Below, in pieces: positions 18,394-33,081 of a DNA stretch of 64,000 bases (within the stretch, counting starts at the first letter, position 1; the number at the start of each line of letters is the position of its first letter). The stretch spans positions 186,001 through 250,000 of the forward strand of contig NZ_QDDR01000006.1 in NCBI RefSeq assembly GCF_003075525.1. The letters run 5' to 3'. The notes beneath the pieces were generated by a model. The model was given only the letters and a program-made list of their open reading frames with translations, was not told the DNA's origin and searched no databases. The position numbers and the translations under genes are program-made. The stretch comes from Pararhodobacter aggregans (GTDB lineage: Bacteria > Pseudomonadota > Alphaproteobacteria > Rhodobacterales > Rhodobacteraceae).

Positions 18394-18443
18394 TTGGCTC
18401 CGGCGGTAGGGATCGAACCTACGACCAATTGATTAACAGTCAA
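18394..18443. repeat. attL core: tRNA-Asn 3' fragment
   Basis: 50 bp identical to 33032-33081. On the minus strand it comprises the anticodon-loop to CCA end of tRNA-Asn (GTT anticodon included) but lacks the 5' half, so it does not encode a functional tRNA. It is the chromosomal 3' end displaced by integration. Confidence 0.93.
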
Positions 18444-18510
18444 GTTTAGTGATTTATCGGGTTGGTGCAGGTTGCTACACGTTAGCATTAAAAACAAGTG
18501 GTTAAACCGA

Positions 18511-18592
18511 TTTTGCAACGCCAATCAATCGGTTTACACGCCATGGTGGTGCATGTTAGTGAATGAGGGCGTTGCAAAATGTTGCAAAACGG
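18511..18592. repeat. GTTGCAAAA motifs at the left end (candidate integrase arm sites)
   Basis: ttttgcaacgcc (inverted) at 18511-18522, then gcgttgcaaaa at 18569-18579 and gttgcaaaa at 18581-18589, spaced by about one helical turn. The same motif occurs as a perfect tandem pair at the right end (32965-32986) and again at 23138-23159. Position next to both att cores suggests arm-type integrase or AlpA binding sites. Confidence 0.5.
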
Positions 18593-18601
18593 AGCGCCCC
18601 G

Positions 18602-19768
18602 ATGACCCTGACAGTCGACTTCACCAAACCCGCTCGCCTGCTCAAAGCCGCCCCCGGCATGTATCGGCACATCGACACGAAGTTCGCGGGCCTCTACCTC
18701 AACGTCGGCAAGACCAAGAGCACTTGGTATGTGAAGCGTCGGGTCGATGGCACGACCAAGTCGATCAAGGTTGGTGACTTCCCGGCGCTGTCAGCACCCG
18801 AGGCCATGGCGAAGGGCGACACCAAGGCAGAGGTTGCGAGTAGCAATATCCAGACCGTGCGAGAGGGGTGGACCTTCTGGTGCGACACGTCGCAGGCGCA
18901 GGGCGGCATGTCGGACGATCACCGCGCCCGGATGACCCGTCAGCTTGAAATGCACGCGGGCGACATTCTGGACCGCAACGTGGCCGATGTAACATCGGCT
19001 GACGTGCAAGCCGTTCTCAACCGCCTGATGTCTGATGGCAAGAAGGCGACGGCGCGGGCCGTGCGCATCGGCATCGGCAATGCCTTCAACTTTGCCCCTG
19101 TGACGAACCCGGTCGGGCAGAAGAAAACGCGGGTCGCCAAGAGCGGCGAGACCGAGGCCCAATGGGCAATTGTCGCCCGCAAGCACGGTCTTGAAGCTGA
19201 CGATTGGTCAACGATCTGGGCGGCGATCATGACGCGGCGAGAGCAGAATATCATCGTTGGCACGGCGCTTGCCGTCATGTTCCTGACCGGCATCCGGTCC
19301 GAAAACGTGCGGTCGCTGTCGTGGGATCAGGTGGACTTGCAGAACAAGACGATCCACCTGACCAAGATGAAGAACAGGCTGGCGCGCACGCTGCCGGTGA
19401 TGGACACGGTGATCGACTTGCTCAAGGCGATCCGGCAGAACGGCAGCGAATGGGTGTTCCCGGCCAATTCTGCCACCGGCTACATCACGGACCCGCAGGG
19501 CACCTTTGCCGAAGTAGAGGGCGAGCGCGAGCGGGTGTTTCTGCCGCACGATGGACGGCGGCACTTCATGCAGGCGTCAGCCGAGGCGTTCTTGCCCGAC
19601 TATGTTGCTCACTTCCTGCGCGGCGACAAAAAGGCTGGGGCAGGCAGCGACATGCTCATGAAATACCTGAAACGGATGGGCAATCGCCGCGCCGTCGAGG
19701 ACATTGAGAAGGTCTATTTCGACCGGATCAAGGTAGTACCTGCTTTGAGCCTTGAACCTGAAAGTTGA
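18602..19768 (+). CDS. Tyrosine recombinase integrase of the element
   Basis: 388 aa (a start at 18563 would add 13 residues). The N-terminal arm/DUF4102-like region includes 'GLYLNVGKTKSTWYVKRR' and 'KVGDFPALSAPEAM', followed by a core-binding SAM-like domain (about 90-180) and the catalytic domain. It has the box-I Arg in TGIRSENVRSL and the box-II HxxR in HDGRRHFMQ. The probable nucleophile Tyr is near the C-terminus (MLMKYLKRM or EKVYFDRI); the usual second His is not obvious. It lies 158 bp inside attL, reading inward, and should catalyse integration into and excision from tRNA-Asn. Confidence 0.9.
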   Translation: MTLTVDFTKPARLLKAAPGMYRHIDTKFAGLYLNVGKTKSTWYVKRRVDGTTKSIKVGDFPALSAPEAMAKGDTKAEVASSNIQTVREGWTFWCDTSQAQGGMSDDHRARMTRQLEMHAGDILDRNVADVTSADVQAVLNRLMSDGKKATARAVRIGIGNAFNFAPVTNPVGQKKTRVAKSGETEAQWAIVARKHGLEADDWSTIWAAIMTRREQNIIVGTALAVMFLTGIRSENVRSLSWDQVDLQNKTIHLTKMKNRLARTLPVMDTVIDLLKAIRQNGSEWVFPANSATGYITDPQGTFAEVEGERERVFLPHDGRRHFMQASAEAFLPDYVAHFLRGDKKAGAGSDMLMKYLKRMGNRRAVEDIEKVYFDRIKVVPALSLEPES

Positions 19769-19945
19769 GTGCACTACGTTCTAGATGTGCCAACGCAACG
19801 TCGTGAGACCGTCGCGCCCATAGTGGGGGCACCAGCATATCTCGGGCAGCGCCGCGCTGGAAGCGGACCCGAGTGAGGACCCGCACCAGCGAATATCAAC
19901 GGAGGGTTTCCGACTGTCAGATTGGACAGACAAGGAACCGTTGAT

Positions 19946-20194
19946 ATGTCCACGCCCGAACTGCGCGCCCTTGAAGGGCGCATTGAAGAGTTGGAAGCCC
20001 GGCTCAAATTTCCCCGCATGATGAACCCGCGCGAGCTTTGCGACTTCCTCGGCATTTCCGAGGCGTTGCTTTACGAGTGGAAACGCAAAGGCGACGCGCC
20101 TCCGGCAATCCATTTCTCGGAACGCTCGGTGCGCTATGACCTCTACTCCGTCATGGAATGGGCGAAGCGCAAAGAAGTAGGGGGGCAGGCTTGA
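19946..20194 (+). CDS. AlpA-like small DNA-binding protein (excisionase/regulator)
   Basis: 82 aa. A short coiled-coil N-terminus (ELRALEGRIEELEARL) is followed by an AlpA/MerR-like helix-turn-helix: 'MNPRELCDFLGISEALLYEWKRKGDAPPAIHF' character, residues 25-57, and a 'VRYDLYSVMEWAKRK' wing. AlpA proteins act as excisionases or master activators in P4-like and PICI satellites. ATG 19946 has a caaggaacc ribosome site. The position between integrase and primase is standard for PICIs. Confidence 0.85.
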   Translation: MSTPELRALEGRIEELEARLKFPRMMNPRELCDFLGISEALLYEWKRKGDAPPAIHFSERSVRYDLYSVMEWAKRKEVGGQA

Positions 20195-20295
20195 GACCTG
20201 CCCCCGGATCAGTGCGTCGGGTCGAATTAGGATAACTCGCTTATAGGCGAGATCGACACAGCATTGAACCGGCAAGACAGGTCCATCCTGAAAAC

Positions 20296-22650
20296 ATGAT
20301 GGATCAGATTCATACCCTCCTGAACGAAGCGGGATACCGGCTTGTCCCGCTGAAAGAGAAGCAGAAGCGCCCGCGCGATAACAATTGGAATGAGAACGCC
20401 TATTCGCTCGATGGCCTCGGGCGGCAAGTGGGCCTCGTGATCGAAACCGGCATGGTCGATGTTGATCTCGACTGGCCGGAATTGCGGGCCTTTGCGACGG
20501 ATGGCAAGTACGACACGCTTGCATGGGGGCGGCAGGGCAAGGTCACGCATCTTGTCTATCGCGCCGAATTGCGTGAGCCGATCACGTTCAAGTTGCCCAA
20601 AGTGACGGGCGCGCCGCTTCTGCAAGGTGATCATGCCTATACCGTCTGTGAACTGCGCACCTCGGCGGCAGGCGAGGCCTATCAGGCGATGATCCCCGGC
20701 AGCACGCACCCCGATGGCGACGACCTCGAATGGTTTCACGAGGTGGTGCCGCAAGAGGTTGCGGCAGACGCCATCGTGCAGACCTGGGGGGCCTATTCGG
20801 CGCTGGCCGTCTTGACGCGGTTCTATCCCGGTCATGGGATGCGCGACGACTTCGCGCTGGCGCTGACGGGCTGCATGGTTCGGGCTGGCTGGGCGGAGCA
20901 GCAGATCAAGAATTTCATGACCTATCTCTGCCGCGCCGCTGGCGATGAAGAAGTGCAAATGCGCTCTGAAAAGGCGCAGCGCACCTTGAAACGGCTTGAA
21001 GCTGGCCGGAAGGTCGCGGGAATTCCGAAAGCTGCGGAACTCATGGGAATCCCCATCAAATGGATGCAGGAGATTGCGGTCTGGCTGGGATGGAAGAAGC
21101 GCAATCCCAAGGGTCAGGGCAGTGCCGTCTTTTTGTCGGCGCAGGTGGCCGAGGTGTCAAAGCAGGCATGGGATGCGCTGGCCGAGTATCAGGTTGAAGG
21201 CGATCCCGGCGTCTATTCTTACGGCGAGGCAATGGCGCGCGTCGATGATGGCCGGATGCAGCTTCTCGACTCGTCAGGCCTGAAATTCGAGTTGAACCGC
21301 TGCACGACATGGCTGGTCAAGGAAAACGACAAGTGGAAGCCCGTTTCGGCTCCGGCAAGCGTGGTGGAGGACATGCTGTGCGCGCGTCGCCGCGACGTGA
21401 CCGTGCCAACGCTGAAACAGGTGTCCATCGTGCCGACATTCACCAGCGACGGGCGCTTGCTCAATGAAAATGGCTTCGACGAGGCATCGGGCATTTTCCT
21501 TGACCTCAAGGTTTCGGTGGAGGTGCCGAGCAAGCCGACTGCTGCCGAGGTGCGGGCGGCGCTTCGTCGCCTGTGGCTGCCGATCTCACAGTTCCCGTTC
21601 GAGGACAAGTCAGACAGGGTTCATGCCCTCGCCATGATCCTTGAACCCTACATGCGCGACATGTTCGGGCCGACGCCGCTCTACTTCATCAACAAGCCTG
21701 CGGCTGGCACGGGGGCTTCGCTGTTTGTCGAGACCTCGCTGTATCCCACGCTTGGCACTTGGCCGGAGGCGCAGACGCCGCCGCGCTCTGGCGAAGAAAT
21801 GAAGAAGACCCTGACCGCTTGTTTTGCCGATGGTCTGCGGTGCATCTATTTCGACAACGCCAACGTGCTGAACTCGCCGGAATTCGCCTCAGCGATCACG
21901 GCGGAAATCTACGCCGCGCGTATCCTTGGCGTGTCGAAGATGTTGCGGGTGCCGGTTCGGGTGCAGTGGGTTGGCTCAGGCAACAACACCGAGTTGTCAG
22001 GCGAGCTTTACCGCCGCACAGTGGACATTCGGATGGATGCCAAGATGGCAAACCCCGAGGATCGCGACATCGCGCAATTCCGCATCAAGGACTTGAAGCG
22101 GTGGGTTGTCGATCATCACGCAGACCAGGTGCGCGCGGCGCTGACGCTCATTCAGTATTGGGTCAACGCCGGGATGCCTGAGGGCAAAGGATCGAAGGCT
22201 TCTTTCGAGGCTTGGGCCGCGAAAATGTCAGGGCTGTTCGAGTGCATCAACGTGCGCGGGTTTCTGGCTACGCCGGTGGATCGGAGGCCTGATGACCCCG
22301 AGGAAGAGCAAATCCGCGAATTGGTTCTTGCGATGCACCGCGCCAAGAAGCGCAAGATCAACCCGAGCGAACCCGGCATTGACTGGACCAAGCCTGTAAA
22401 GGCATCGACGGTGCTTGATCTCGTGACGGCGCAGCATGTGAATATCGACTTCGGCTGGAAAGACCCGGCGCGGGCGATGGGCGACTTGCTGAGGCGGTTT
22501 CAGGGGCGCATCTTCGAGTTTGAGACCGAGGGCGGGCGCACGGCGCGGCTGGCGCTGTCGAAGTCCTCATATCAGGGCACGACGCGCTGGACGGTTGATG
22601 CCGAGGTCGTCGAAGAGATCAAAGAGAAAACGGCTCAGCCTGCGTTCTGA
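20296..22650 (+). CDS. Replication protein: Prim-Pol primase fused to D5/SF3-like ATPase
   Basis: 784 aa. The N-terminal AEP/Prim-Pol domain (about 10-160) has the acidic pair in MVDVDLDW, His in GKVTHLVYR and the 'PGSTHPDGD' segment. The C-terminal AAA+/helicase-like domain (about 420-640) has a P-loop-like INKPAAGTGASLF that lacks the usual GKT/S lysine, a Walker-B-like CIYFDN, a sensor GSGNN and an arginine-rich LYRRTVDIR. It probably initiates replication of the excised element. The repeats right after the gene (22715-22953) may be its origin. Start is ATG 20296 or the adjacent 20299. Confidence 0.87.
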   Translation: MMDQIHTLLNEAGYRLVPLKEKQKRPRDNNWNENAYSLDGLGRQVGLVIETGMVDVDLDWPELRAFATDGKYDTLAWGRQGKVTHLVYRAELREPITFKLPKVTGAPLLQGDHAYTVCELRTSAAGEAYQAMIPGSTHPDGDDLEWFHEVVPQEVAADAIVQTWGAYSALAVLTRFYPGHGMRDDFALALTGCMVRAGWAEQQIKNFMTYLCRAAGDEEVQMRSEKAQRTLKRLEAGRKVAGIPKAAELMGIPIKWMQEIAVWLGWKKRNPKGQGSAVFLSAQVAEVSKQAWDALAEYQVEGDPGVYSYGEAMARVDDGRMQLLDSSGLKFELNRCTTWLVKENDKWKPVSAPASVVEDMLCARRRDVTVPTLKQVSIVPTFTSDGRLLNENGFDEASGIFLDLKVSVEVPSKPTAAEVRAALRRLWLPISQFPFEDKSDRVHALAMILEPYMRDMFGPTPLYFINKPAAGTGASLFVETSLYPTLGTWPEAQTPPRSGEEMKKTLTACFADGLRCIYFDNANVLNSPEFASAITAEIYAARILGVSKMLRVPVRVQWVGSGNNTELSGELYRRTVDIRMDAKMANPEDRDIAQFRIKDLKRWVVDHHADQVRAALTLIQYWVNAGMPEGKGSKASFEAWAAKMSGLFECINVRGFLATPVDRRPDDPEEEQIRELVLAMHRAKKRKINPSEPGIDWTKPVKASTVLDLVTAQHVNIDFGWKDPARAMGDLLRRFQGRIFEFETEGGRTARLALSKSSYQGTTRWTVDAEVVEEIKEKTAQPAF

Positions 22651-22714
22651 TTGGCGGTGCCTGTGATGGCGATGCGGGCGGAGTTTTCGGACATCGCCCG
22701 TTTTCGTTGGGTGG

Positions 22715-22797
22715 TGACCACAGATGGCACAGGCATGGCACAGGCAAAAATGTCTTTGGTAGCAAATGGTTGTTGCCATGTGTGGCATGTGTGGTCA
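22715..22797. repeat. Inverted-repeat unit 1 (candidate origin iterons)
   Basis: Left arm tgaccacagatggcacag (22715-22732) plus gcatggcaca. Right arm 22774-22797 ends in gtgtggcatgtgtggtca, the imperfect reverse complement. Total 83 bp; the middle 40 bp is not symmetric. Confidence 0.6.
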
Positions 22798-22870
22798 GTT
22801 CTCGCCGTGCTTATACTGTGTAGCAGGGTGGTGCCGGTGATCAGATCGCTTCGCGCGATGTATGAAAAAG

Positions 22871-22953
22871 TGACCACAGATGGCACAGATGGTCACGAGG
22901 CATTGTTTTTGCAGCGTTTTTCTGCTGTGGCATGGTTGTGGCATCTGTGGTCA
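22871..22953. repeat. Inverted-repeat unit 2 (candidate origin iterons)
   Basis: Same left arm tgaccacagatggcacag (22871-22888) and right arm ending gtggcatctgtggtca (to 22953). Length (83 bp) and arm layout equal unit 1, exactly 156 bp downstream. The centre is unrelated to that of unit 1. Confidence 0.6.
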
Positions 22954-23615: not shown

Positions 23616-23876
23616 ATGCACATCATCATCCAAGACCACGGCGACCGCTGCGCCATCGTGGCGACGAGCGTTTCGTCCAACACCCTCTTTCCCTTGACCA
23701 TCACCGCCGCCGCCCTGCGCGACGGCCTGCGTGCCATCCTCGCCTCCCCGGCGACCAAGGAACTGGCCTGCGGACCGGCCTCCCTCGTGCGCACCGCCGA
23801 AGGCATCGACGTGACGACCAGCGCCGGGCGTTTCGTCATCCCCTATCCCCACGCCTTCCCGCTGGTGCTGGCATGA
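23616..23876 (+). CDS. Small hypothetical protein, first of overlapping set
   Basis: 86 aa from ATG 23616 with an aggag ribosome site. The sequence opens with MHIIIQDHGDRCAIV and has alternating beta-like segments, then 'SLVRTAEGIDVTTSAGRFV'. I do not recognise a family. Its stop codon overlaps the next start (ATGA), the beginning of a tightly coupled run of small genes. Confidence 0.6.
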   Translation: MHIIIQDHGDRCAIVATSVSSNTLFPLTITAAALRDGLRAILASPATKELACGPASLVRTAEGIDVTTSAGRFVIPYPHAFPLVLA

Positions 23877-24058
23877 GGAAGCCCAAGCCAGCCCCCAAGC
23901 CCGACGACCGCCTCGTCACCCTGCGCGCCCAAGGTCTCGACGTGGCAGGCATCGGCGACCGCGACGGCACGCCCCTGATCCAGTGGCAGCGCCCGCCGAC
24001 CGAAGCCGAACGTGCGCAAGCCAACCTGATCCTGCCGGGGGCTTTGCACGATGCCTGA
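23873..24058 (+). CDS. Small hypothetical protein with W-Q...TEAERA motif
   Basis: 61 aa; ATG overlaps the previous stop by 4 bp. A basic Pro/Lys start (KPKPAPKPDD) leads into 'IQWQRPPTEAERAQANLIL'. That C-terminal half is clearly related to the protein at 24254-24484 (FCRWQKTTTEAERADAERFI), so the two are probably paralogues. Function unknown. Confidence 0.55.
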   Translation: MRKPKPAPKPDDRLVTLRAQGLDVAGIGDRDGTPLIQWQRPPTEAERAQANLILPGALHDA

Positions 24059-24254
24059 CGCAACGCTCTTGGAGGTGCGCCGCGCCGGTGCAGCCGTCAC
24101 CTTCTTCTGGGATGGCCAACCCACCGGCTACCAGCGCAAGGTGGCCGAAGAAGCCAACCCCTCGAACGGCCTGCGCATCGGCCATTCGTGGCCGGGTGAT
24201 CGTGACGACGGGGCACCCGGTGCCTATCGCGTGACGGGAGGTCGCCGTTTCTGA
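24051..24254 (+). CDS. Small hypothetical protein
   Basis: 67 aa, overlapping its neighbours at both ends (8 bp and 1 bp). The sequence includes AGAAVTFFWDGQPTGYQRKV and ends basic (VTGGRRF). No recognised domain. The tight overlap on both sides supports translation as part of the small-gene operon. Confidence 0.5.
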   Translation: MPDATLLEVRRAGAAVTFFWDGQPTGYQRKVAEEANPSNGLRIGHSWPGDRDDGAPGAYRVTGGRRF

Positions 24255-24484
24255 TGGCTTGGCGCTCCCTTGATCTCACGGCCAACCTGCTCCGCGAACG
24301 CGGCCTTGATGTTGTCGCGGTCTGGTCCACTGAACCCGATCTGACTTCACCAAGTCGGATCGTGTTCTGCCGCTGGCAGAAAACGACGACCGAAGCCGAG
24401 CGTGCGGACGCCGAACGGTTCATCTTTGCGCCGACCATTCGTCACCTCGACATCTGGGAACGGCCCGAGGGGTGCCCTTGGTGA
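24254..24484 (+). CDS. Small hypothetical protein, paralogue of 23873-24058
   Basis: 76 aa. 'GLDVVAVWSTEPDLT' is followed by 'FCRWQKTTTEAERADAERFI', which shares the W-Q-x3-TEAERA-x-A core with the protein at 23873-24058. It starts on the last base of the preceding stop codon and overlaps the next gene. Unknown function; the duplication hints at a small DNA- or protein-binding module of the element. Confidence 0.55.
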   Translation: MAWRSLDLTANLLRERGLDVVAVWSTEPDLTSPSRIVFCRWQKTTTEAERADAERFIFAPTIRHLDIWERPEGCPW

Positions 24485-25059
24485 CGCCGGAACAGGCCCT
24501 CTACCTCGCCGTGATGCGTCTCGCCGTTTCCGACCTCATCGGTGGCACGCGGGATGAACCGGGGAGGGCCGATCTGATCCGCAAAGACGCGATTGCCTTC
24601 TTCACGGACAGCATTGGCCCGTGGGCCGATATGCGCGCCGAAGTCTGCGAGGCAATCGACCGTGACCCGGACGAGGTGCGCGCAGCAATCATCGAAACCC
24701 TTGAGGGTGGTGATCTGCCCAATCTCGGCCATGTGCGCGGCCAGCAAATTGAGAAATCCCGCGCCCTCTGGCGTGCGCAGAAGTCTCAGAACGCGCTGAT
24801 TGAGGCCCATCGGGCGAAGCACGAGGCGAAACTGAAATCGCTCGCCAAACCTGCGCCTGTCGTTGCAAGCAAACCGACCCGCCTGCCGCGCATCGTCAGG
24901 GCATTGCCGAAACCTGCGCCGCCCCCTCAAGCCAAGCCGATGCCACCCGCCCCAAAGTCCTCGCGCGTCAAGGAGACCCGGCGTGCGGACAAGCCTTGGA
25001 AATGCCCCCCGCGCTCGCCCGAGGATGACTTCTGGTATGGCATCGCGCCTTCGGCCTGA
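24481..25059 (+). CDS. Hypothetical protein with Pro/Lys-rich tail
   Basis: 192 aa from GTG 24481, which has a gagggg ribosome site 8 bp upstream; an earlier GTG at 24472 is possible. The N-terminal helical domain (about 1-110, acidic, 'EQALYLAVMRLAVSDLIGG') is followed by a long Pro/Lys/Ala-rich disordered tail (KPAPVVASKPTRLP ... PKPAPPPQAKPMPPAPK) and a short aromatic end. No family recognised. It is the last gene before the terminator at 25172. Confidence 0.6.
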   Translation: MTPEQALYLAVMRLAVSDLIGGTRDEPGRADLIRKDAIAFFTDSIGPWADMRAEVCEAIDRDPDEVRAAIIETLEGGDLPNLGHVRGQQIEKSRALWRAQKSQNALIEAHRAKHEAKLKSLAKPAPVVASKPTRLPRIVRALPKPAPPPQAKPMPPAPKSSRVKETRRADKPWKCPPRSPEDDFWYGIAPSA

Positions 25060-25171
25060 CGCTACCTTTTTCCGGGCCAGCATCACCTTCTTCTTCGGTC
25101 GAAATGCCACCTTGGGTTGCATATCGTCATGACGTGCGCAGGAGCGCCGTTTCCTATCTGTCCAAAATCAG

Positions 25172-25226: not shown

Positions 25227-25874
25227 ATGCCCGACGACACCACCGCAGCCATTCAGGCGCTGCTGCAACAGGTCACGGTGCTGACCGAGACCGTGCAGAC
25301 GCAGCAGAAACATCTGGACGCGCTCAAGACCCACATTCTCGACGAGAAGAAGGACGCGCTGCGCGAAAAGGACACGGCCCTTTCCTCCGTGGACAAGATC
25401 CTCGCCCAGCTTGAAACCCAGCAGCGCGAAAAGGCCCTGAAACTGGCTGGCTTCGAGCGTGATGCCGCGGGCAATCTGGTGCTTGGCGGTGGCCGGACGG
25501 AACGCGGCGTGTTCCTGACCCGCGAGGAAGCCCGTGACCCTGTGAAATACCGCGAGGCGAAGGCCAAAGCCGAGGCTGAGGGCTTGCCGCTCCGCGTGTC
25601 GGATACCGCCGAAGACCCGACCCGGCGGAACACGGGTCAGCCGGACATCATGAAATCCACGGTCTTCACCTTCGACGACGACTTCACGAAGACCCGTTTC
25701 ATTCGTGCCGACATGCAGACCGGGGCGGGCATCGTGCAGCGTCGCCTTGCGGCTGAGCGCGAGGGCTTCACGATCCGCACTTTTCGGACCCTTGAAGACC
25801 TTCCTGAGCACGCGGCACGCAAGTTCTCTTTGATGGAGAAGGCAGCGAACGCTGGGGGCGACGATGCAAATTGA
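25227..25874 (+). CDS. Hypothetical coiled-coil protein upstream of terminase
   Basis: 215 aa. Residues 5-75 are strongly helical/coiled-coil (TVLTETVQTQQKHLDALK ... LAQLETQQREKALKLAGF). The rest is mixed, with 'TVFTFDDDFTKTRFIRADMQ'. ATG 25227 has a taggagata ribosome site right after the terminator, so a new transcript probably starts in this gap. Phages often carry small accessory genes here, before terS. I cannot assign a function. Confidence 0.6.
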   Translation: MPDDTTAAIQALLQQVTVLTETVQTQQKHLDALKTHILDEKKDALREKDTALSSVDKILAQLETQQREKALKLAGFERDAAGNLVLGGGRTERGVFLTREEARDPVKYREAKAKAEAEGLPLRVSDTAEDPTRRNTGQPDIMKSTVFTFDDDFTKTRFIRADMQTGAGIVQRRLAAEREGFTIRTFRTLEDLPEHAARKFSLMEKAANAGGDDAN

Positions 25875-26154
25875 AGCCGCAGCAGCCCTTCATGCCTCTG
25901 TCGCGAAGGTGCGCGGCATCCCCCTGACGGATGTGTGGGTCGATCCTGACTTCCTGATGATCCTCGTGAACGGCAATCCGTCGAAACCGACGAACCGCGA
26001 ACTGTGCCTGAAAGCAGGCGTCCGCGCGATCCTTGGCTTTGACGCGGACGAAACCCTGCTCGCGGGCGAGGACGGCGAAACGGTGTTCGAGACGGTCGCA
26101 ACCACCCTTTACCTGACCGACGTGTTGCGAGGTGGATATGCAGCAGCGGTCTGA
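25864..26154 (+). CDS. Hypothetical protein in packaging module
   Basis: 96 aa, starting 11 bp before the end of the coiled-coil gene and overlapping the TerS-like gene by 17 bp. Compact alpha/beta sequence (VRGIPLTDVWVDPDFLMILV ...) without cysteines clustered in metal motifs. No family recognised; gene coupling puts it in the packaging operon. Confidence 0.55.
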   Translation: MQIEAAAALHASVAKVRGIPLTDVWVDPDFLMILVNGNPSKPTNRELCLKAGVRAILGFDADETLLAGEDGETVFETVATTLYLTDVLRGGYAAAV

Positions 26155-26740
26155 ATCCACGGGCAAGGGCGGGCGCAAGAACACGATCCTGATGCACCCC
26201 GAACGCCAGACGATCATCAAGCAGATCATCTTGGGCGAGCAGGGTCTGGCTGGCGGCATGTCAAAGGTGCAGGTCGCGAAGCGTCTCGGGATGCACCCTG
26301 ATTCCATCGTGCGCTTCCGCAAGGAGCATATCACGGAGGAAATGGTGCGCGCTGTCATGGCCGATGTGCGGCTGTCGAAGATCGAAGGCGACACGGCGGT
26401 TCTCAATGAGGGCCGCATGGACGTTGCCCGCACCTACGAGTCCTTGGCGCGGCGAGTAGAAAAGCTGCTGACGAAGGCTGAGGAAAACGACGACGACGGG
26501 TTCTCGCTCTCAGCCGCCGAAGGTCTGCGCCGCATTTTGCGCGACATTGCCACAATGCACGGAAAAATGGCGACGGCGCTCACCGTCGAAGTCAAGCTCT
26601 CGGAAAGCCCCGAATGGTGCACGTTGAAGCGTATCATTCAGGAGGTGTGCGAGGAAGTGCCAGCCGCCCGCGAGCCGTTCCTGCGCAAGATGCGCCGCGA
26701 GGCGCTGTCCATCACGCGCGAGGGTGGCGATGCCTTTTGA
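26138..26740 (+). CDS. Putative small terminase subunit (TerS-like)
   Basis: 200 aa. After a basic N-terminal tail (GKGGRKNTILMHPERQ) comes a helix-turn-helix (GMSKVQVAKRLGMHPDSIVRFRKEHI), then a helical central region (YESLARRVEKLLTKAEEN ... AEGLRRILRDIATMHGKM) suitable for ring oligomerisation. This is the TerS layout. It lies immediately before the TerL ATPase gene and overlaps it by 11 bp. ATG 26138 has a gaggt ribosome site. The assignment rests on architecture and position, not on a diagnostic motif. Confidence 0.6.
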   Translation: MQQRSESTGKGGRKNTILMHPERQTIIKQIILGEQGLAGGMSKVQVAKRLGMHPDSIVRFRKEHITEEMVRAVMADVRLSKIEGDTAVLNEGRMDVARTYESLARRVEKLLTKAEENDDDGFSLSAAEGLRRILRDIATMHGKMATALTVEVKLSESPEWCTLKRIIQEVCEEVPAAREPFLRKMRREALSITREGGDAF

Positions 26741-27521
26741 CGCGCTCCTGCCGTGGTTTGAAGACCTCGAACGGCAACTCGATCCAGCCGCTCGCCTCGC
26801 GCACTGGATCGGCCATGAACCTGACCCGTGGCAAGTCGAGATGTTCTCGACAAAGGCATCTGAGGTTGCGTGTAGGGTGAGCCGGCAAGCCGGAAAGACT
26901 TCCGTTCTCGCCGCGCGTGCCGTCGAGGAACTGCACGTCCCCGAGTCCTTAACGATCTGCATTGCGCCCGCCGAACGTCAGGCGAAGATCATCGCCCGCG
27001 AGATCGGTCGCCAGCTTCGCCGCACGGACCTTGTGATCACGCGGTCAACACTGACGGAACTCGAAATGTCGAACGGCGCGCGGGTCGTCGCGCTGCCCTC
27101 CACGTCCGACACCATTCGCGGCTTTCCATCCGTGTCGCTTTTGATCATAGACGAGTGCGCGTTCTTGAAGGGCGACGACGACGAGGAAACGCGAGGCGAG
27201 ACGTTGATTTCGGGTGTTTTGCCGATGTTGACGACGCAGGGGCAGGTCTTTTTCAGCAGCACGCCCGCAGGCAAGCAGAACTACTTTGCGAAGCTGTTCC
27301 TCGACGCAAAACCCGATGATGGTATTCACCGTATCGTTGTGAGGGGAACGGCCATTCCGCGACTGGCCGAAAAGGTCGAGCGGATGCGCCGCACGCTCTC
27401 TGCGACGAAGTTTCGCCAAGAAATCGAAGTCGAAATGCTGGCCGATGGCGCAAGCTACTTCGACCTCTCAATCATCGAACAAGCCACAAGCACGGAGAGC
27501 GCCATATGTCCTCGCCTATAG
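26730..27521 (+). CDS. Large terminase, ATPase half
   Basis: 263 aa, equal to the N-terminal motor domain of a phage large terminase. The adenine-binding Q is in DPWQVEMF, Walker A is SRQAGKTS (about residue 52), Walker B SLLIIDECAFL (about 137) and the coupling motif FFSSTPAGK (about 172). The sequence ends with 'YFDLSIIEQATS', the usual boundary before the nuclease domain. ATG 26730 follows an aggg site. The missing nuclease is encoded by the next, overlapping gene. It should drive DNA packaging, presumably into a helper phage procapsid. Confidence 0.88.
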   Translation: MPFDALLPWFEDLERQLDPAARLAHWIGHEPDPWQVEMFSTKASEVACRVSRQAGKTSVLAARAVEELHVPESLTICIAPAERQAKIIAREIGRQLRRTDLVITRSTLTELEMSNGARVVALPSTSDTIRGFPSVSLLIIDECAFLKGDDDEETRGETLISGVLPMLTTQGQVFFSSTPAGKQNYFAKLFLDAKPDDGIHRIVVRGTAIPRLAEKVERMRRTLSATKFRQEIEVEMLADGASYFDLSIIEQATSTESAICPRL

Positions 27522-28222
27522 ACCTCGTTTTCATGCCCGATGGGCGCGTCCTGAATGATACCAACCATGACCCTGCTATCCCGCGCGTGACGGGTTTTCA
27601 GAACTATTGGGTTGCCGCTGACCTCGGGCAAGCGCACGACTTTTCTGCTGTCTGTGTGATCAAGGATCAAGCCTTGCCCACCGTGGACGCGGGGCGCGTG
27701 ATCGTCGGCCCGCGCGAACGGACGGTCGTGTTCGCTGACCGCTTCCGTGGGGTCAGCTATGTTGACGTGGTGGACCATCTGATCCGCCTCAAGAACGCAC
27801 CTCCCTTCGGGGGCAAGTCGAACCTCGTGATTGACGGCACGTCCATCGGACGCGTCGTGTCGGACATGCTGCACGAGCAGAACGTGCCGCACTTCGCCAT
27901 CCAAATGACGGGCGGGCAGGAGTGGTCGAAGAAAGGCCGCTACGTCAACGCGGGCAAAACGGCCATGGTTGAGACCCTTGCCGTGATGTTCGCCGCAGGC
28001 GAGATCAAGTTTGCCCACGACTGCCCGCTGCGCGCCGAGATCGAGGCCGATCTCGCCTCCTTCACGACGCAGACAACGGCGGCTGGCAATCAGATCATCA
28101 CGCAGGGGCGCACAGGCTCTGGCCATGGTGATCTCGGGATTGCGCTGATTGTGGGCGGGTTCGCATCGCAGCATCTCAAGCCGCAGCGCATGGAAGTTGC
28201 GCACCTGAGCGGGTATTATTGA
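27506..28222 (+). CDS. Large terminase, nuclease half (RNase H-like)
   Basis: 238 aa in a different frame from the ATPase half, overlapping it by 16 bp and with its own ggag ribosome site before ATG 27506. Terminase-nuclease acidic motifs are visible: AADLGQAHDFSA (about residue 38), LVIDGTSIG (about 105) and a late Asp in GHGDLGIALIVGGFA. It supplies the head-full or cos cutting activity that is normally fused to the motor. The break falls exactly at the domain boundary, and both halves keep their motifs, so this looks like a functional split rather than a decayed frame. Confidence 0.83.
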   Translation: MSSPIDLVFMPDGRVLNDTNHDPAIPRVTGFQNYWVAADLGQAHDFSAVCVIKDQALPTVDAGRVIVGPRERTVVFADRFRGVSYVDVVDHLIRLKNAPPFGGKSNLVIDGTSIGRVVSDMLHEQNVPHFAIQMTGGQEWSKKGRYVNAGKTAMVETLAVMFAAGEIKFAHDCPLRAEIEADLASFTTQTTAAGNQIITQGRTGSGHGDLGIALIVGGFASQHLKPQRMEVAHLSGYY

Positions 28223-28350
28223 CAGAGCCGCAGCGAAGGCGGGGTAGCAGGCGCGTCTTGCGGTTGCGCCCTATCAGGGTAGGGCACAAGCCGCGACCGC
28301 CTTCTCTGACGCGCTATTGCGGAAGTTGTGCCGACTACCCAAAAGGAATT

Positions 28351-28866
28351 TCACTCCTCGGCAAGCCAGAGTTGCTTGCCCTTCTTATAGAGCCGGATCA
28401 CCGTCTCCGCGAGCGCATCGCGGTCGCCTACCATGCGTTCTTCGATGTAGCGTTTGGCCGCAGCCGCAGGCCCAGTGACATCTGGCCACGCTTTTCCATC
28501 TATCCACTCCTGCATCGCGAGATAGACGACGATAGGCGAGTGCTCGGGCCATGCCTTGCCGTCGATCCCAAGCGCCGATGAAGCGTCCTCGCGGCTCAGC
28601 GCGCCCTTTGGGCCAAGGTTCGATGCGATGTGATTGGCGACGCCTTTAAGGTAGCCGATGATCCAGTCGGGCAGCGGTTCCTTGGCGGACCCGTGATCTG
28701 CGATGTACTTCCACGCGCTCATAGCGAGGTGCCGCCGAAAACGTTCCGGCGGAACGCCGCCCGTCATGTCGTCCAATGACAACGGCCTTTCTGCCGCTCC
28801 GTACTTGGCCAGTTCGTCGAGCCACTCGGGCGGCAAGTTGGCAGGTTCGCGCCCCTCCTGTCCCAT
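28351..28866 (-). CDS. Hypothetical accessory protein, opposite strand
   Basis: 171 aa from ATG 28866, preceded by a perfect aggagg site 9 bp away; the open frame extends further upstream without support. Helical, with W-rich start (NLPPEWLDELAKYG), 'MSAWKYIADHG', 'LPDWIIGYLKGVANHIASN' and a repeated 'DGKAWP' pair (residues about 105 and 125). No family recognised. It is convergent with the terminase operon and divergent from 28959, a typical place for an accessory cargo gene. Confidence 0.6.
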   Translation of the reverse strand: MGQEGREPANLPPEWLDELAKYGAAERPLSLDDMTGGVPPERFRRHLAMSAWKYIADHGSAKEPLPDWIIGYLKGVANHIASNLGPKGALSREDASSALGIDGKAWPEHSPIVVYLAMQEWIDGKAWPDVTGPAAAAKRYIEERMVGDRDALAETVIRLYKKGKQLWLAEE

Positions 28867-28958
28867 ATCCGTCGACCTCCTCGTCATGGCAGTTTTTCTG
28901 CAAGCCACGGTCGTTCGGAACGTGGTGACAGATTGGCAGAATGAAAAGGAGTTATGCC

Positions 28959-29285
28959 ATGAATACAAGCATTCAGAAGAAACTGACCGAACTCGCCCGT
29001 GAGTTTGACCTCCGCGAAATCCGTATTCAGACCGAAGACCGGCGCGAGATGTTCCTCCGGTTCGAGGGAGGTTGCTGCATGGCTTGCTGGAACAGCACGA
29101 TGCCCGAGGACACTAAAGCCGAGATGGAAATGAAGTGGGTGAAGTCGATCATCGACCACCGGGTCGATGAAGGCTGGCTGCTCGGATACCATCATGAGTA
29201 CGGCGACGGCTTTGTCTATCGCTACTGCGCTGGCCTCTACGAAGAACGCCGCCAGCAGGGTTGCGAAGGTCGGGAGATAGCGTGA
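28959..29285 (+). CDS. Hypothetical protein of accessory cluster
   Basis: 108 aa, ATG 28959 with aaaaggag ribosome site (the longer frame from 28941 is unlikely). Charged N-terminal helix, then a pair of cysteines (GGCCMACWN) and an aromatic-rich C-terminal half (GYHHEYGDGFVYRYCAGLY). No known domain. First of three tandem small genes with touching ends. Confidence 0.55.
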   Translation: MNTSIQKKLTELAREFDLREIRIQTEDRREMFLRFEGGCCMACWNSTMPEDTKAEMEMKWVKSIIDHRVDEGWLLGYHHEYGDGFVYRYCAGLYEERRQQGCEGREIA

Positions 29286-29491
29286 TGAACCTTTCTGGCA
29301 TCCTTGACGAGCACGACATTCGTATTCTTCGCGCTGTTGAAGAAGCGGGTGGTTTCAGCAAAGTGACGTTCACAACCACAGGTTCCGACCACAAGGTCGA
29401 ACTGACTTGGGCTGGCGTCGAACGCGACTATGAACCCATTTGGAAAGTGCGCGCGCATTTGCCTTCGGAAATCGAAAGGGACGGGGCATGA
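29285..29491 (+). CDS. Small hypothetical protein of accessory cluster
   Basis: 68 aa, starting on the last base of the preceding stop. Contains 'ILDEHDIRILRAVEEAGGFSKVTFTTTG' and an aromatic 'LTWAGVERDYEPIWKV' segment. Overlaps the next gene by 4 bp. Unknown function. Confidence 0.5.
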   Translation: MNLSGILDEHDIRILRAVEEAGGFSKVTFTTTGSDHKVELTWAGVERDYEPIWKVRAHLPSEIERDGA

Positions 29492-29796
29492 ACTACCTCA
29501 CCTTGGAATCGCTGCTGGACGACAACCTCAAGCCGATCCTCGAAAAGCACCTTGAAGGACGCAGCTGCCGCTTGTCGGCGAGCGGTGGCTTCCTCATTGA
29601 CGACGACTATGCGGCACCTTGTCTGTTCGACTCGCTTCGCGGAACGGCTGTTTTCAAGCGTATGCGCGAAAAGGCTCTGGACGATGCGCGGGAAATCCTG
29701 CGGGGCTTGGGCGACACCCTGCCCGCAGGCGCAACGGTCAGGCTCTACGGCATGGAGTTTGACCGTGTTGACGGGAACTGGATGAACCGGGTTTGA
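29488..29796 (+). CDS. Small hypothetical protein of accessory cluster
   Basis: 102 aa, ATG overlapping the previous stop. Acidic/helical (SLLDDNLKPILEKHLEG ... KRMREKALDDAREILRGLG), ending 'VRLYGMEFDRVDGNWMNRV'. No recognised domain. A GC hairpin follows directly. Confidence 0.5.
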   Translation: MNYLTLESLLDDNLKPILEKHLEGRSCRLSASGGFLIDDDYAAPCLFDSLRGTAVFKRMREKALDDAREILRGLGDTLPAGATVRLYGMEFDRVDGNWMNRV

Positions 29797-29807
29797 AGAA
29801 GTTGTGT

Positions 29808-29869
29808 GGGCGGCCAGTTGGCCGCCCCCCATTCATGGGAGTCCTGAACCCCGCGCGTTTGACGCGGGG
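29808..29869 (+). terminator. Two GC hairpins between accessory cluster and RM module
   Basis: gggcggcc-agtt-ggccgccc at 29808-29827 and ccccgcg-cgtttga-cgcgggg at 29849-29869. Neither has a T-run, so termination is uncertain. The second hairpin lies 33 bp before the nuclease start and could affect its expression. Confidence 0.4.
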
Positions 29870-29902
29870 CAGATTGCCTGATCGACTTGATCGGAGTACC
29901 AG

Positions 29903-31204
29903 TTGTGTAGCGAGTTCAACACGGCTGACGAAATGAAGAATTTTCCACATCAGTTTGCAGACATCGAACGCCTGACAGAAGCACTCAGGACTGCTCAGGC
30001 TACTATTTCGTCTGGAAAAGACTTTGGACGTGATGATGTATTCGGGCCAGAACTCGCGAGGAGCGGCGTCTACACATTTCGCGCAGGAGACGACCTTGAA
30101 GCAAATCTGAAGGCCGAGGCTCTCAAGCCGAGGGCCAGCAGGGGAACTGAAACTGCTGCGCGCGAAATGCGGCGCTTTCTTGTCCTTTCTGGATTCTTGG
30201 AATTTGACGACGCGTCAGGCACGTTCGGTGTTACTCCGCGCGGAGTTGAGCTACTATCAGCGAAGATACCCGCCGTGGTCAAAGCACTTTGGCGGGACGC
30301 CATGCTGGCGTTGTTGCTGGAAGATGCCGATGGTAATAAAAGCCATCCGTATCGGATTCTGCTACGCTTAGTGGCAGATAATCCTGGAATTGATACGTTT
30401 AAGCTAATGCTCGCTTTTGAATGTAAAGACGATTCGGAGAACGAATATAGGCGCATTTTAGCGTTACTCGGACACGATTTTTACGATATGATCTCAGCGC
30501 TTGGAGTCGGAGAGTCAAAAGCTCGAAACGCGGTGAAAATTCTCCCAAGCATTGCCGATCAGGTTGGGGATATTCATCGGGACTCTGGAAAAAGTTATCC
30601 CTTGGCGACAGTAGAGATCGCAGAGGATGGCATAGATACCGCTAAAAACTCAGCTAAGAAAAAATCGGCCCCTTCTTCGGGAAAAAAGGTCACAAAAAGA
30701 GTGTCGGCTGGAAGCATTGCTTCCAGTCCAGACTTTTCAAACGGGGACGGTGCGAGCAACACTTTTGACCTCTCAGGCGCAATCGAGTTGCGTAAGCGGC
30801 GGACCAAGCAGCACCAGTCAGTGGTAAGGGCATTGGCAAGCGCACTTGAAGTCAACGCGTTTGATTTGTTTGAGGACCCATTTGACTGTCTTGCCACGAA
30901 GGCGGGAAAGATCATCTTGTTTGAAATAAAAACGCTTGACGGAAGCCCGTCAGACGAACGCCGACAAGGTGAAAAGGCGCTTGGTCAGGTTATGGGCTAC
31001 CGTCATTTTGATCTGCCAGCGGAAGTCGGGGACAAGTCAGTTAATCTCAGCATTGTATTCTCTCAGAAGCCGAGCGAAGCCATGCTGCAGTTCCTGAACA
31101 AAAGCGGTGTTATCCCTGTTTGGCTCGGCGCCGATGCAGAGTTCATCGCTTATGACGGTGCTGGAAACATGCGCGGATTAGTCGAGTTGCTGAACGGCCT
31201 TTGA
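29903..31204 (+). CDS. Putative type II restriction endonuclease (PD-(D/E)XK)
   Basis: 433 aa, AT-richer than the rest of the element. N-terminal half: winged-helix-like segments (FLVLSGFLEFDDASGTFGVTPRG) suited to DNA recognition. The Lys/Ser-rich linker (about 240-275) is followed by a C-terminal nuclease domain with FEDPFDCLATKAGKIILFEIKTLDG (about 325-350), matching the D...E-x-K catalytic pattern, and a helical 'GQVMGYRHF'. Separate recognition and cleavage domains and two adjacent methyltransferases resemble type IIS systems such as FokI (inference). Start TTG 29903 has a ggag site; ATG 29933 is the alternative. It is convergent with the methyltransferase operon. Confidence 0.72.
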   Translation: MCSEFNTADEMKNFPHQFADIERLTEALRTAQATISSGKDFGRDDVFGPELARSGVYTFRAGDDLEANLKAEALKPRASRGTETAAREMRRFLVLSGFLEFDDASGTFGVTPRGVELLSAKIPAVVKALWRDAMLALLLEDADGNKSHPYRILLRLVADNPGIDTFKLMLAFECKDDSENEYRRILALLGHDFYDMISALGVGESKARNAVKILPSIADQVGDIHRDSGKSYPLATVEIAEDGIDTAKNSAKKKSAPSSGKKVTKRVSAGSIASSPDFSNGDGASNTFDLSGAIELRKRRTKQHQSVVRALASALEVNAFDLFEDPFDCLATKAGKIILFEIKTLDGSPSDERRQGEKALGQVMGYRHFDLPAEVGDKSVNLSIVFSQKPSEAMLQFLNKSGVIPVWLGADAEFIAYDGAGNMRGLVELLNGL

Positions 31205-31975
31205 GTCAGTCTCTTCCCATCCTTCAGCCCTTAGCCTGCCCTCTGCGATTTCGCAGTAGCGTTCGTTCAGTTCGATGCCAGTGAACGTTCTTCCAGCGCG
31301 GAAGGCTGCTACGCATTCTGACCCTGAACCTGCAAAGGGGATCAATACATTTCCATTCGGGGGGCAAAAGTGTTCTACAAGTCTCTCACTAATTGCGAGC
31401 GGCTTTTGCGTAGGATGCCCAACCTTCTCGTCTTTGAACCTTCTTCCTGCTAACGTGGGAATGTTCCACACGTCGCCGGCTAGACGGCCATCTGGGTTCG
31501 GTTTCCAAACCTTGCCATTCTTGTTAACGTTGTATTTTAGGCGGTCTGCACTCTTGTATGGCTCTCGGATTTCCTTGAAAAAATGTTTCTCTGACATGGA
31601 AAACCAAAGTAGCGGCTCATATGTCGCCCTGATGTTTCTGTTCCCGCAAAAGCCGTTTTCATAGTGCCAGATTATTTGACGCCGGTACTGCATGCCAAGA
31701 TCGTAGAGCTGGACCTGATTATAGCAGATGTAGTGGCTAATCCCATATAGAAGTATACTGCCATCATCCTTGAGGATGCGCTTACACTCCGAAAGCCAGG
31801 ACCAGCACCACTCCTTCCACTCAGCAATACTCTTCCAACTGTCTGGCTTTCCAAAGTCTTTGTCGATCCCATAGGGCGGGTCGGCAATGACAAGGTCTGC
31901 TGACCTACTCGGTATCGTCCTGAGTAGTTCGATCACGTCCCCATGAATGATACGGCTATTGGTTTTCTCAGTCAT
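31178..31975 (-). CDS. DNA methyltransferase (amino-MTase, DPPY; beta-type order)
   Basis: 265 aa. The catalytic motif IV DPPYGID comes near the N-terminus (about residue 33) and the SAM-binding motif I FAGSGSECVAAFRAG...GIELNE near the C-terminus, the order of beta-class N6-adenine/N4-cytosine methyltransferases. AT-rich coding sequence. The start overlaps the end of the upstream methyltransferase by 8 bp; the C-terminal codons overlap those of the convergent nuclease gene by 27 bp. It probably protects one strand of an asymmetric site against the nuclease at 29903. Confidence 0.88.
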   Translation of the reverse strand: MTEKTNSRIIHGDVIELLRTIPSRSADLVIADPPYGIDKDFGKPDSWKSIAEWKEWCWSWLSECKRILKDDGSILLYGISHYICYNQVQLYDLGMQYRRQIIWHYENGFCGNRNIRATYEPLLWFSMSEKHFFKEIREPYKSADRLKYNVNKNGKVWKPNPDGRLAGDVWNIPTLAGRRFKDEKVGHPTQKPLAISERLVEHFCPPNGNVLIPFAGSGSECVAAFRAGRTFTGIELNERYCEIAEGRLRAEGWEETDSKAVQQLD

Positions 31976-32846
31976 CGTGTCGCTGAAGAATCATTGCGTA
32001 TTGATGGTGGATGTTGGGAACAAACGCAAAAGGATAACCGTAGGGGAAAACCCTTTTAAACTTCTGGTAAATGATTGTCACGCCTTTCAGCGTGTAAGGC
32101 CCAAGCTCTTCAATCCTGCGCGACAGGTCAGAGTGGAACAAATAGTAGCGGTCCTTATTTCGAAAGTCCCCGACTATAACAACCGCATACTTCTTTGGTT
32201 TTAGCGCCCTAGAGAGGTCAAAGAAGAGTTGACCTATCTCACTCAGAAAATCGTCGTAGTCCTCGATGTGGGCCAAGTCAGCTTCTGTTTCCCCATAGTT
32301 GTGGGAAAGTCCGTTTTGCAGGCGCTCTTGCTTGGCTTTGTGATCAATCTTGTTAAGGATGCCCCAATAGGGCGGGCTAGTGACAATGAAATCCACTGAC
32401 TTTTCAGGAATCTCTCTTGCCAAAGACCGCGCATCTCCTAGCATGATATCATGTCTAGTCGCCGCCAAAAGCTCTGAAGAGACTTCCGTCTGAAGCCGCT
32501 TCTTTGTGAGGTCAAAAAAGGTTGGGTTCAGTTCAAAGCCTGTCGAGTTTCGCCCGACGCTGGCTGCGGCCTTCGATGTTGAGCCGACACCGCTAAACGG
32601 GTCGAGAACGGTTTCTCCGCGCTTTGTAAAGAACTCGATGAAACGTGCCACATCTTGATAGGAGAACGGTGCAGGGTGCTGGCGCTCTATTTGTGCTTCC
32701 TTAGACCCTTTCCCAAGGCCTTTTTGAACCATCACGGATACGGTTCTGGTGATCCATTCACTGGCTGTGAGATCGTTCAGTTTGTTGCGAGGATCAATCT
32801 GCCCCGCCAACTGGCTGACATCGAGATCGCCGGGTTCTGCGTTCAT
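31968..32846 (-). CDS. DNA methyltransferase (amino-MTase, TSPPYW)
   Basis: 292 aa from ATG 32846, chosen for its gggaggg site; the frame extends to 32984. Motif I VLDPFSGVGSTSKAA (about residue 70) precedes motif IV VTSPPYWG (about 140), the opposite order from its operon partner. SPPY-type motif IV is common among N4-cytosine and some N6-adenine enzymes. First gene of the two-methyltransferase operon. Two different methyltransferases beside one nuclease suggest a non-palindromic target. Confidence 0.88.
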   Translation of the reverse strand: MNAEPGDLDVSQLAGQIDPRNKLNDLTASEWITRTVSVMVQKGLGKGSKEAQIERQHPAPFSYQDVARFIEFFTKRGETVLDPFSGVGSTSKAAASVGRNSTGFELNPTFFDLTKKRLQTEVSSELLAATRHDIMLGDARSLAREIPEKSVDFIVTSPPYWGILNKIDHKAKQERLQNGLSHNYGETEADLAHIEDYDDFLSEIGQLFFDLSRALKPKKYAVVIVGDFRNKDRYYLFHSDLSRRIEELGPYTLKGVTIIYQKFKRVFPYGYPFAFVPNIHHQYAMILQRHDD

Positions 32847-32964
32847 CGCGTGCCCTCCCTGTTTCGTTTTGTTGTCCATTGCTACAGTCTCGTTCGATTG
32901 TTCGCAACGGAAGTTGCCGGGTTCATGCGGTCCGCTCATCGCGGGGGACGGGAAATCTGCCCAT

Positions 32965-32986
32965 GCGTTGCAAAAGCGTTGCAAAA
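32965..32986. repeat. Tandem gcgttgcaaaa pair at right end (candidate arm sites)
   Basis: Two perfect 11-bp copies in tandem, 45 bp inside the attR core. The same motif, with similar spacing, lies beside attL (18569-18589) and in the region after the primase gene (23138-23159). Confidence 0.55.
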
Positions 32987-32993
32987 ACGAAGA

Positions 32994-33013
32994 AGGCGTC
33001 CTATCGGACGCCT
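32994..33013 (-). terminator. Element-borne terminator for reconstituted tRNA-Asn
   Basis: 8-bp stem aggcgtcc-tatc-ggacgcct; on the minus strand it is followed by tcttcgttttt. It lies 19 bp beyond the tRNA CCA end. It replaces the original terminator (18345-18363) that was separated from the gene by integration. Confidence 0.75.
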
Positions 33014-33031
33014 CGTATCGTCTTGATTTTA

Positions 33032-33081
33032 TTGGCTCCGGCGGTAGGGATCGAACCTACGACCAATTGATTAACAGTCAA
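33032..33081. repeat. attR core within intact tRNA-Asn
   Basis: 50 bp identical to 18394-18443, covering the 3' portion of the tRNA including anticodon loop and encoded CCA. Defines the right border of the element. Confidence 0.93.

Follow-up and report, generated by a model that had tools for sequence, protein, structure and literature searches.

Phage-inducible chromosomal islands (PICIs) are satellites of ~15 kb that carry an int–alpA gene pair and a replicase and have no capsid, tail or lysis genes. P4-like satellites carry Sid-, Psu- or delta-type genes and no terminase, VEIMEs are recognized by element DNA recovered from virions, and tycheposons by their typical recombinase set. The available passages of published work describe PICIs as packaging through the terminase of the helper phage, in some cases with a TerS of their own or an Rpp redirector, and P4 as relying on the P2 terminase (PMC10690885), and describe capsid-forming PICIs (cf-PICIs) as including capsid, protease, head–tail connector and HNH genes (PMC10690885; PMC13230959). 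In similarly partial texts, a terminase gene in AH14b was not identifiable to its authors (PMC4936722), and terS, sid and ppi homologues were not found in the PICMI element by its authors (PMC10803314). Here we analyse a 64-kb stretch of the Pararhodobacter aggregans genome (the window; positions 186001–250000 of contig C6 in a 5.08-Mb genome), in which a 14,638-bp element at tRNA-Asn carries a terminase whose large subunit (TerL) is divided over two genes, terLN and terLC. The element is one of a real and conserved family of mobile elements whose terminase comes in two pieces and in which no capsid is recognized, and we consider it likely that these are helper-dependent satellites of a new family, which have their own packaging motor and take the head from a helper.

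Like Gram-negative PICIs, the element measures ~15 kb and has an AlpA-like gene beside int, its own replication module and no capsid, tail or lysis genes among its 20 genes; the attachment (att) repeats, integrase gene and an empty site in a related genome suggest integration by its own integrase. It differs in apparently encoding a complete TerL as two genes, whereas PICIs, in the passages available, use or redirect the helper terminase. For this reason the PICI label is not established; of the original prediction, a PICI-like or new satellite family, the second part stands. The element shares with cf-PICIs its own TerL and, by position and predicted fold only, its own TerS, but the capsid, protease, head–tail connector and HNH genes listed in the cf-PICI passages are not recognized in it, and a portal occurs only in a sister group of elements. 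An integrase, an AlpA-like protein, a primase and the lack of head genes are common to P4-like satellites, AH14b and the window element, which differs from them, as the partial texts describe them, in having a terminase; no Sid-, Psu- or delta-type hit was found among its 20 genes. PICMI is likewise a small marine satellite without capsid-remodelling genes, but where it is reported to have no terS homologue, the window element carries the full terS–terLN–terLC set. A search of the open literature, with the VEIME, SatelliteFinder and tycheposon papers outside its coverage, returned no recognizable description of terminase-bearing capsid-less satellites, and the family is apparently undescribed so far.

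Integration site and split terminase

The element is bounded by repeats that are exact over 50 bp, as had been predicted (Table 1). Since the tRNA-Asn is intact on the minus strand, the repeat corresponds to the 3′ part of the tRNA and the element lies directly downstream of it. In a genome of the same genus (G296) the site is empty and the tRNA-Asn intact, and the flanks of the element, joined in silico, align across the junction with 84% identity over 207 columns, in agreement with the tRNA-Asn integration originally proposed. In another genome of the genus (G300, locus L088), the flank alignment ends near the end of the repeat, and the tRNA-Asn is taken up by a different insertion of 5.8 kb, which has a 29-bp repeat. 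All six copies of the motif GTTGCAAAA in the window lie inside the element (0.17 expected), three at the left att, two at the right att and one near the origin; the copies at the ends are putative integrase arm sites.

All 20 element genes were scanned with Pfam and PHROGs, and NCBIfam and PADLOC scans were also carried out. terLN and terLC are two intact frames with a 16-nt overlap. The terLN profile matched solved TerL ATPases (4zni, 7.1e-20; T4 gp17, 3.2e-19), and the terLC profile a solved TerL nuclease (5tge, 6e-10). In the terLN alignment (24 rows), R52, G55 and K56, which we take to be Walker A (RxxGKS/T), are present in at least 90% of the rows, and E142 (presumably Walker B) and T178 and P179 (presumably the TP of STP) in all. 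In the terLC alignment (26 rows), D110 and D209 are present in all rows and D39 in at least 90%; these are assumed to be the three nuclease acids. The ratio of nonsynonymous to synonymous substitutions (dN/dS) was 0.08–0.10 for terLN and 0.07–0.14 for terLC (three comparisons each, with dS near or above 1). These values show, at the level of sequence, purifying selection on both halves, and the profile matches and conserved residues support the prediction that both TerL activities are encoded in intact frames.

Across elements the overlap between the two genes ranges from 1 to 49 nt (23 junctions) and the frame offset varies. A Shine–Dalgarno-like motif was found upstream of the terLC start chosen by us in 18 of the 23 junctions, and four of the starts are TTG; the invariant first residue of the terLC alignment is partly built in by this choice. 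A programmed frameshift that fuses the frames is rejected on the basis of the variable overlap, the non-uniform offset and the Shine–Dalgarno-like motif. The window's own group has a constant frame offset, so there the argument consists of the motif and the variable overlap. A random frameshift mutation as the origin of the split is also rejected, because the split is family-wide and both halves are constrained. terLN and terLC are accordingly best read as two polypeptides.

The predicted TerS-like protein is upheld by its position ahead of terLN, a weak helix–turn–helix (HTH) hit and a predicted fold only. Its model consists of an HTH and a helical hairpin (predicted lDDT (pLDDT) 77, predicted TM-score (pTM) 0.47), and fold searches with it gave no match at E ≤ 0.001; the searches used positions 26141–26740, without the start codon. 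As predicted, neither a portal, capsid, tail or lysis gene with a credible PHROGs match nor a relaxase in the Pfam scans was detected among the 20 genes. Weak PHROGs hits were limited to terminase small subunit for the AlpA-like HTH (0.0028, 0.01) and tape measure for orf6 (0.019).

Relatives, sister group and wider occurrence

A terLC search found relatives in 26 of 295 genomes of the family Rhodobacteraceae (the window's own included, some as fragments), and in 30 loci on public genome contigs; one relative, L050, comes from Ruegeria atlantica. The set used for comparison comprises 43 loci found via terLC (the window, L033–L062 and L063–L074), including contigs cut at their ends. Family profiles detected int in 30 of them, alpA in 31, orf5 in 35, orf6 in 36, terS in 39, terLN in 41 and terLC in 43. 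The commonest order in complete loci, as mapped with our own simple gene caller, is int-alpA-rep-small genes-orf6-terS-terLN-terLC-cargo-tRNA, and four loci (L033, L053, L056 and L062) are broken or rearranged. The window's replicase type occurs in two loci (window included), and two other types occur in 9 and 11. Among 25 tRNA-bearing loci, 17 have an att repeat of 29–53 bp, and one repeat of 19 bp was set aside; of eight additional loci, two were newly measured (L104, whose left repeat begins at the edge of its stretch, and L105), two were duplicates and four had no repeat. The 20 measured elements span 13,061–15,926 bp (mean 14,331, standard deviation 644, coefficient of variation 4.5%), and tRNA-Asn, -Thr, -Ala and -Lys serve as targets. 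The related compact elements that the original prediction had asked for thus exist, mostly with the same gene order, and no syntenic full prophage, which would have marked the element as a deletion derivative, was found among the relatives identified via terLC.

Several loci depart from this pattern. L059 has another int-alpA set on the 3′ side of the element, and L053 has int-alpA directly ahead of a shortened terLN; both suggest tandem or recombined elements. In L033 (Rhodobacter capsulatus DSM 1710), terLN and terLC are 96–99% identical to those of the window and the left half of the element is missing, through decay or rearrangement. L119, the sole IMG/VR contig with a window-type terLN (86% identical), has int, alpA and the replicase downstream on the opposite strand.

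In a first TerL tree, phage R5C was placed within the window group with a branch length of 3.94, and the tree was rebuilt without four long rows (R5C, phiFa, L099 and L063). The window group (15 rows) was then supported at 100/99 and joined with the sister group at 96/93 (23 rows), and this clade was separate from the nearest sampled phage TerLs, MMP17 and Riverbug. The split TerL of L097, from another alphaproteobacterial family, groups with MMP17 and Riverbug outside the main clade in both trees, so the split possibly has more than one origin. When the 295 family genomes were searched with the terLN profile (cut-off 1e-10), 19 hits in 18 genomes were obtained at E ≤ 7e-82, in open frames of 253–340 aa (one of 502); weaker hits were fragments and then frames of 435–654 aa at 6e-22 to 3e-12, which we read as single-gene TerLs. 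No close prophage parent of the split TerL was seen in this search, and tblastn of terLC (the window protein and one sister-group protein) against 50,697 phage records gave no match.

A portal gene is present in 10 of the 43 loci, all of them among the 12 loci L063–L074 (the sister group), and in none of the other 31; the searches made revealed no capsid gene in the sister group. In most of L063–L073, terLC is ~27–36% identical to that of the window. The three sister-group portals that were scanned matched phrog_145 at 3.5e-57 to 3.7e-101, and the query portal shares 43% identity with the portal of Dinoroseobacter phage R5C, a phage that encodes TerL in one gene (501 aa). A search of the window's host genome for phrog_145 portals gave no match, and its controls were equally silent. 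orf6 mostly encodes ~120–135 aa in portal-bearing elements and has an extra C-terminal part in portal-less ones; L066, which has a portal, carries part of this extension. The pattern points to a possible interaction of orf6 with the portal, although it is only a correlation. A named member of the sister group, on plasmid pSC52_1 (CP049029.1), is annotated as hypothetical proteins and DUF4055.

Beyond the family, a search at class level gave hits in 6 of 385 genomes (own included). L096, from another family, has the window-type gene order. L098 (G662, an 8-Mb genome) has a lone TerL-nuclease-like gene of ~210 aa near tRNA-Pro, with the ATPase half not recognized. At phylum level, phrog_27743 had matches in 12 of 398 genomes (own included), and six of the loci were examined (L134–L139). 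L134–L138, from other Pseudomonadota, combine terS-, terLN-, terLC- and int-like genes next to a tRNA (-Phe, -Asn, -Val, -Ser or -Glu) and a large ORF upstream, which was a primase in all three tested (L136–L138); the integrase was identified by PHROGs in L138, which also has an anti-repressor-like gene. In L136 an att repeat of 51 bp was found at 10.4 kb, the portal-bearing L139, which belongs with the sister group, spans 15.2 kb between 34-bp repeats, and four of the six loci have no repeat.

Split TerL genes were also found on plasmids of Salinibacter ruber (11.2, 14.9 and 31.6 kb) and on a 16.3-kb Streptomyces virginiae plasmid (NZ_CP030359.1, NZ_CP030370.1, NZ_CP108092.1 and NC_014026.1; L115–L118), where they are annotated as terminase family or hypothetical. 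pSR14, pSR11 and the Streptomyces plasmid resemble the window element in size (11–16 kb), in having a primase, a TerS-sized ORF upstream and overlapping split TerL genes, and in the absence of an annotated portal or capsid; they differ in being circular plasmids, the Salinibacter ones with parA. Ten genes of pSR14 were scanned, and one is tape-measure-like; an IMG/VR search with a pSR14 protein gave 10 loci, nine at 24–25% identity. These small circular plasmids with adjacent TerL-ATPase and TerL-nuclease genes are non-mobilizable and are possible episomal satellites. The passages available of a published study note terminases on small Salinibacter plasmids, naming pSR31, and do not mention satellites (PMC6060240). 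The label 'alphaproteobacterial' given to the element holds for its own lineage and is too narrow for the kind.

Remaining genes and cargo

The predicted integrase and AlpA-like protein were both recovered by library matches (Table 1). The replicase had been called a Prim-Pol/ATPase protein; the Prim-Pol part is borne out, and the ATPase part is indicated indirectly, via one matched phage protein annotated as P-loop ATPase-like. Its C-terminal half matches phrog_10537 (function not annotated; 6.1e-76) and phrog_19930 (DNA polymerase/primase; 8.8e-21), and the replicase is 32–33% identical to roseophage proteins across 58–64% of its length. The repeats noted downstream of it were confirmed as four copies of TGACCACANATGNCACA (0.08 expected by chance), arranged as two inverted pairs 65–303 bp past the gene.

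A homologue of orf5 (L066:6473-7111) gave weak regulator matches and has a winged-helix appearance. The orf6 model has a helix over residues 3–73 and small alpha/beta parts (pTM 0.35), with no match at E ≤ 0.001 in a fold search; we regard the predicted protein as a candidate capsid/portal adaptor or scaffold.

The cargo had been described as restriction–modification. Its two methyltransferases are supported, whereas a restriction part was not recognized in the libraries: the ORF beside them (29903–31204) gave no match in Pfam, NCBIfam, PADLOC or PHROGs and no credible one in the PDB, and has a D...ExK-like stretch judged by eye only. The cargo of relatives differs, and 6 of 10 chosen proteins match PADLOC models for restriction–modification, PD-Lambda-2 or PDC-S28, so the slot after terLC appears to hold interchangeable cargo, often restriction or other defence genes.

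Table 1. Features of the element (window coordinates)
Feature	Position	Strand	Remarks
Left att repeat, tRNA-distal	18394..18443		Displaced host 3′ end of tRNA-Asn; exact 50-bp match to right copy
Putative integrase arm sites, three GTTGCAAAA	18511, 18571, 18581 (span 18511..18589)	-, +, +	Putative role
Tyrosine integrase (int)	18602..19768	+	PF00589 1.7e-12; phrog_1 7.1e-32
AlpA-like regulator/excisionase	19946..20194	+	PF05930 and PF12728 (HTH_17), both 2.2e-07
Prim-Pol replicase	20296..22650	+	PF09250 2.9e-06; C-terminal half like phage primase/polymerase
Putative origin, four 17-bp iterons TGACCACANATGNCACA	22715..22953	22715+, 22781-, 22871+, 22937-	Putative role
orf1, small protein	23616..23876	+	In 29/43 loci
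orf2, small protein	23873..24058	+	In 2/43 loci, window included
orf3, small protein	24051..24254	+	In 2/43 loci, window included
orf4, small protein	24254..24484	+	In 9/43 loci
orf5, conserved	24481..25059	+	In 35/43 loci
orf6, conserved coiled-coil protein	25227..25874	+	In 36/43 loci
orf7, small protein ahead of terS	25864..26154	+	This version in window only, among 43 loci
TerS-like protein	26138..26740	+	Position, weak HTH hit, predicted HTH and helical hairpin; in 39/43 loci
TerL ATPase half (terLN)	26730..27521	+	Terminase_6N 3e-11; phrog_7579 1.8e-33
TerL nuclease half (terLC)	27506..28222	+	Terminase_6C 4.1e-05; phrog_27743 2.6e-29
Cargo ORF	28351..28968	-	No usable library hit
Three small cargo ORFs	28956-29285, 29285-29491, 29488-29796 (block 28956..29796)	+	No usable hit
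Cargo ORF	29903..31204	+	Possible restriction endonuclease, by position beside two methyltransferases
DNA methyltransferase	31178..31975	-	N6_N4_Mtase 2.7e-49; PADLOC type II MTase 1.4e-53
DNA methyltransferase	31968..32984	-	N6_N4_Mtase 6.8e-23; PADLOC 8.1e-33
Putative integrase arm sites, two GTTGCAAAA, tRNA end	32967..32986	+	Putative role
Right att repeat, within tRNA-Asn	33032..33081		Exact 50-bp match to left copy
tRNA-Asn(gtt)	33033..33107	-	Intact; integration target

Proposed life cycle and alternatives

The reading as a new family of satellites that have a split terminase of their own and lack a head gene fits because no syntenic full prophage was found via terLC, the relatives are mostly compact, no HK97-type capsid was found inside the element in the 10 hosts where its place could be compared, and an empty site exists; the recurrence of the compact form bears out the original proposal. 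An element that has a packaging motor and no shell of its own therefore probably fills shells made by other phages with its DNA, and we infer helper dependence, excision and packaging. Upon infection or induction of a helper, AlpA and the integrase would excise the element via the arm sites at both att ends, and the Prim-Pol replicase would fire the iteron origin to yield concatemers. TerS would select the satellite packaging site, and the terLN and terLC polypeptides would assemble as one motor on the portal of the helper prohead, possibly tied to the helper head by orf6, and fill it with satellite DNA, while capsid, tail and lysis would be provided by the helper. The sister group would follow the same scheme using its own portal.

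HK97-type capsid genes (PF05065), which would be a possible source of such heads, were matched in 23 of 26 host genomes or records. In the 10 hosts with comparable contigs (G035, G003, G140, G077, G246, G156, G229, G251, G010 and pSC52_1), no match lay inside the element, and three of the 10 had no match at all. The window's host has three HK97-type capsid loci, all distant from the element (G000:C1:266434, C1:122201 and C6:46591), the first near a TerL with a 494-aa frame at C1:262632. Such loci are candidate helpers or gene transfer agents.

Several observations weigh against a helper-dependent satellite with its own motor. No helper phage was identified and no virion evidence for the family was found; of five IMG/VR searches with family proteins, four were empty and one gave a single contig, with a name read as isolate-derived. 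The PHROGs head-gene scans of relatives covered selected proteins, 16 of the 26 capsid searches could not be placed relative to the element, and the roles of orf6 and TerS are based on position and weak models. terLC is present in all 43 loci because these were found through it, so its conservation is built in by the search. No att repeat was found in 7 of the 25 tRNA-bearing loci, and repeats are absent in most loci of the second group. The lengths of the left and right parts are anticorrelated (r = −0.75, permutation p = 0.00035), but the effect reflects a difference between replicase groups and is lost inside each group (r = 0.21, n = 13; r = −0.36, n = 7), so that size compensation is only a weak argument for packaging.

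Alternatively, the terminase proteins might act as decoys on helper portals or DNA that block helper packaging, the element DNA being packaged by the helper terminase. Interference of satellites with the packaging of their helpers is described in the passages available (PMC10690885), and the methyltransferases of the window element and the defence genes of relatives would suit such a role. We nevertheless hold this to be very unlikely, as the ATPase motifs are conserved together with all three acidic residues of the nuclease, none of which would be required of a decoy, terS remains beside terL, and the sister group adds a portal. A prophage remnant or deletion derivative that has lost its head and tail genes but retained the terminase would account for the phage-like genes, the tRNA integration and the fragmentary terL copies in some genomes; it is highly improbable given that the compact architecture recurs across many genera with att repeats, narrow sizes and purifying selection, and that no close prophage parent was seen with the terLN profile in the 295 family genomes. 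Least probable is a defence island or integrative element that resides in the genome and is transferred by conjugation, gene transfer agents or passive transduction, with the terminase a domesticated leftover, since despite the defence-type cargo and the host capsid loci (three in the window's host, at least one in 23 of the 26 related hosts or records, some possibly gene transfer agents), the Pfam scans of the 20 genes revealed no relaxase, 41 of the 43 loci retain terLN and 39 retain terS, and the element has its own replicase and iterons.

The helper-dependent satellite with its own motor may also belong to something broader. We see about even chances that there is a multi-phylum class of motor-bearing satellites, so far unrecognized, comprising chromosomal islands and small plasmids of ~10–16 kb with a permanently split but complete terminase and sometimes a portal, which would take over foreign proheads by exchanging the motor and not the capsid or the DNA signal. 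The satellites compared here, as far as the available passages describe them, redirect the helper terminase, shrink the capsid or build their own head; a motor alone, or a motor with a portal, would, if true, add another means of taking over a virion. One annotated record of the family was examined, and its terminase genes are listed as hypothetical. The family would provide a direct test of whether a terminase drives a foreign portal and prohead, and its natural two-polypeptide TerL would be useful for asking why the ATPase and nuclease are normally fused. In the abundant group of marine bacteria in which they are found, these elements carry exchangeable cargo that is often of the defence type.

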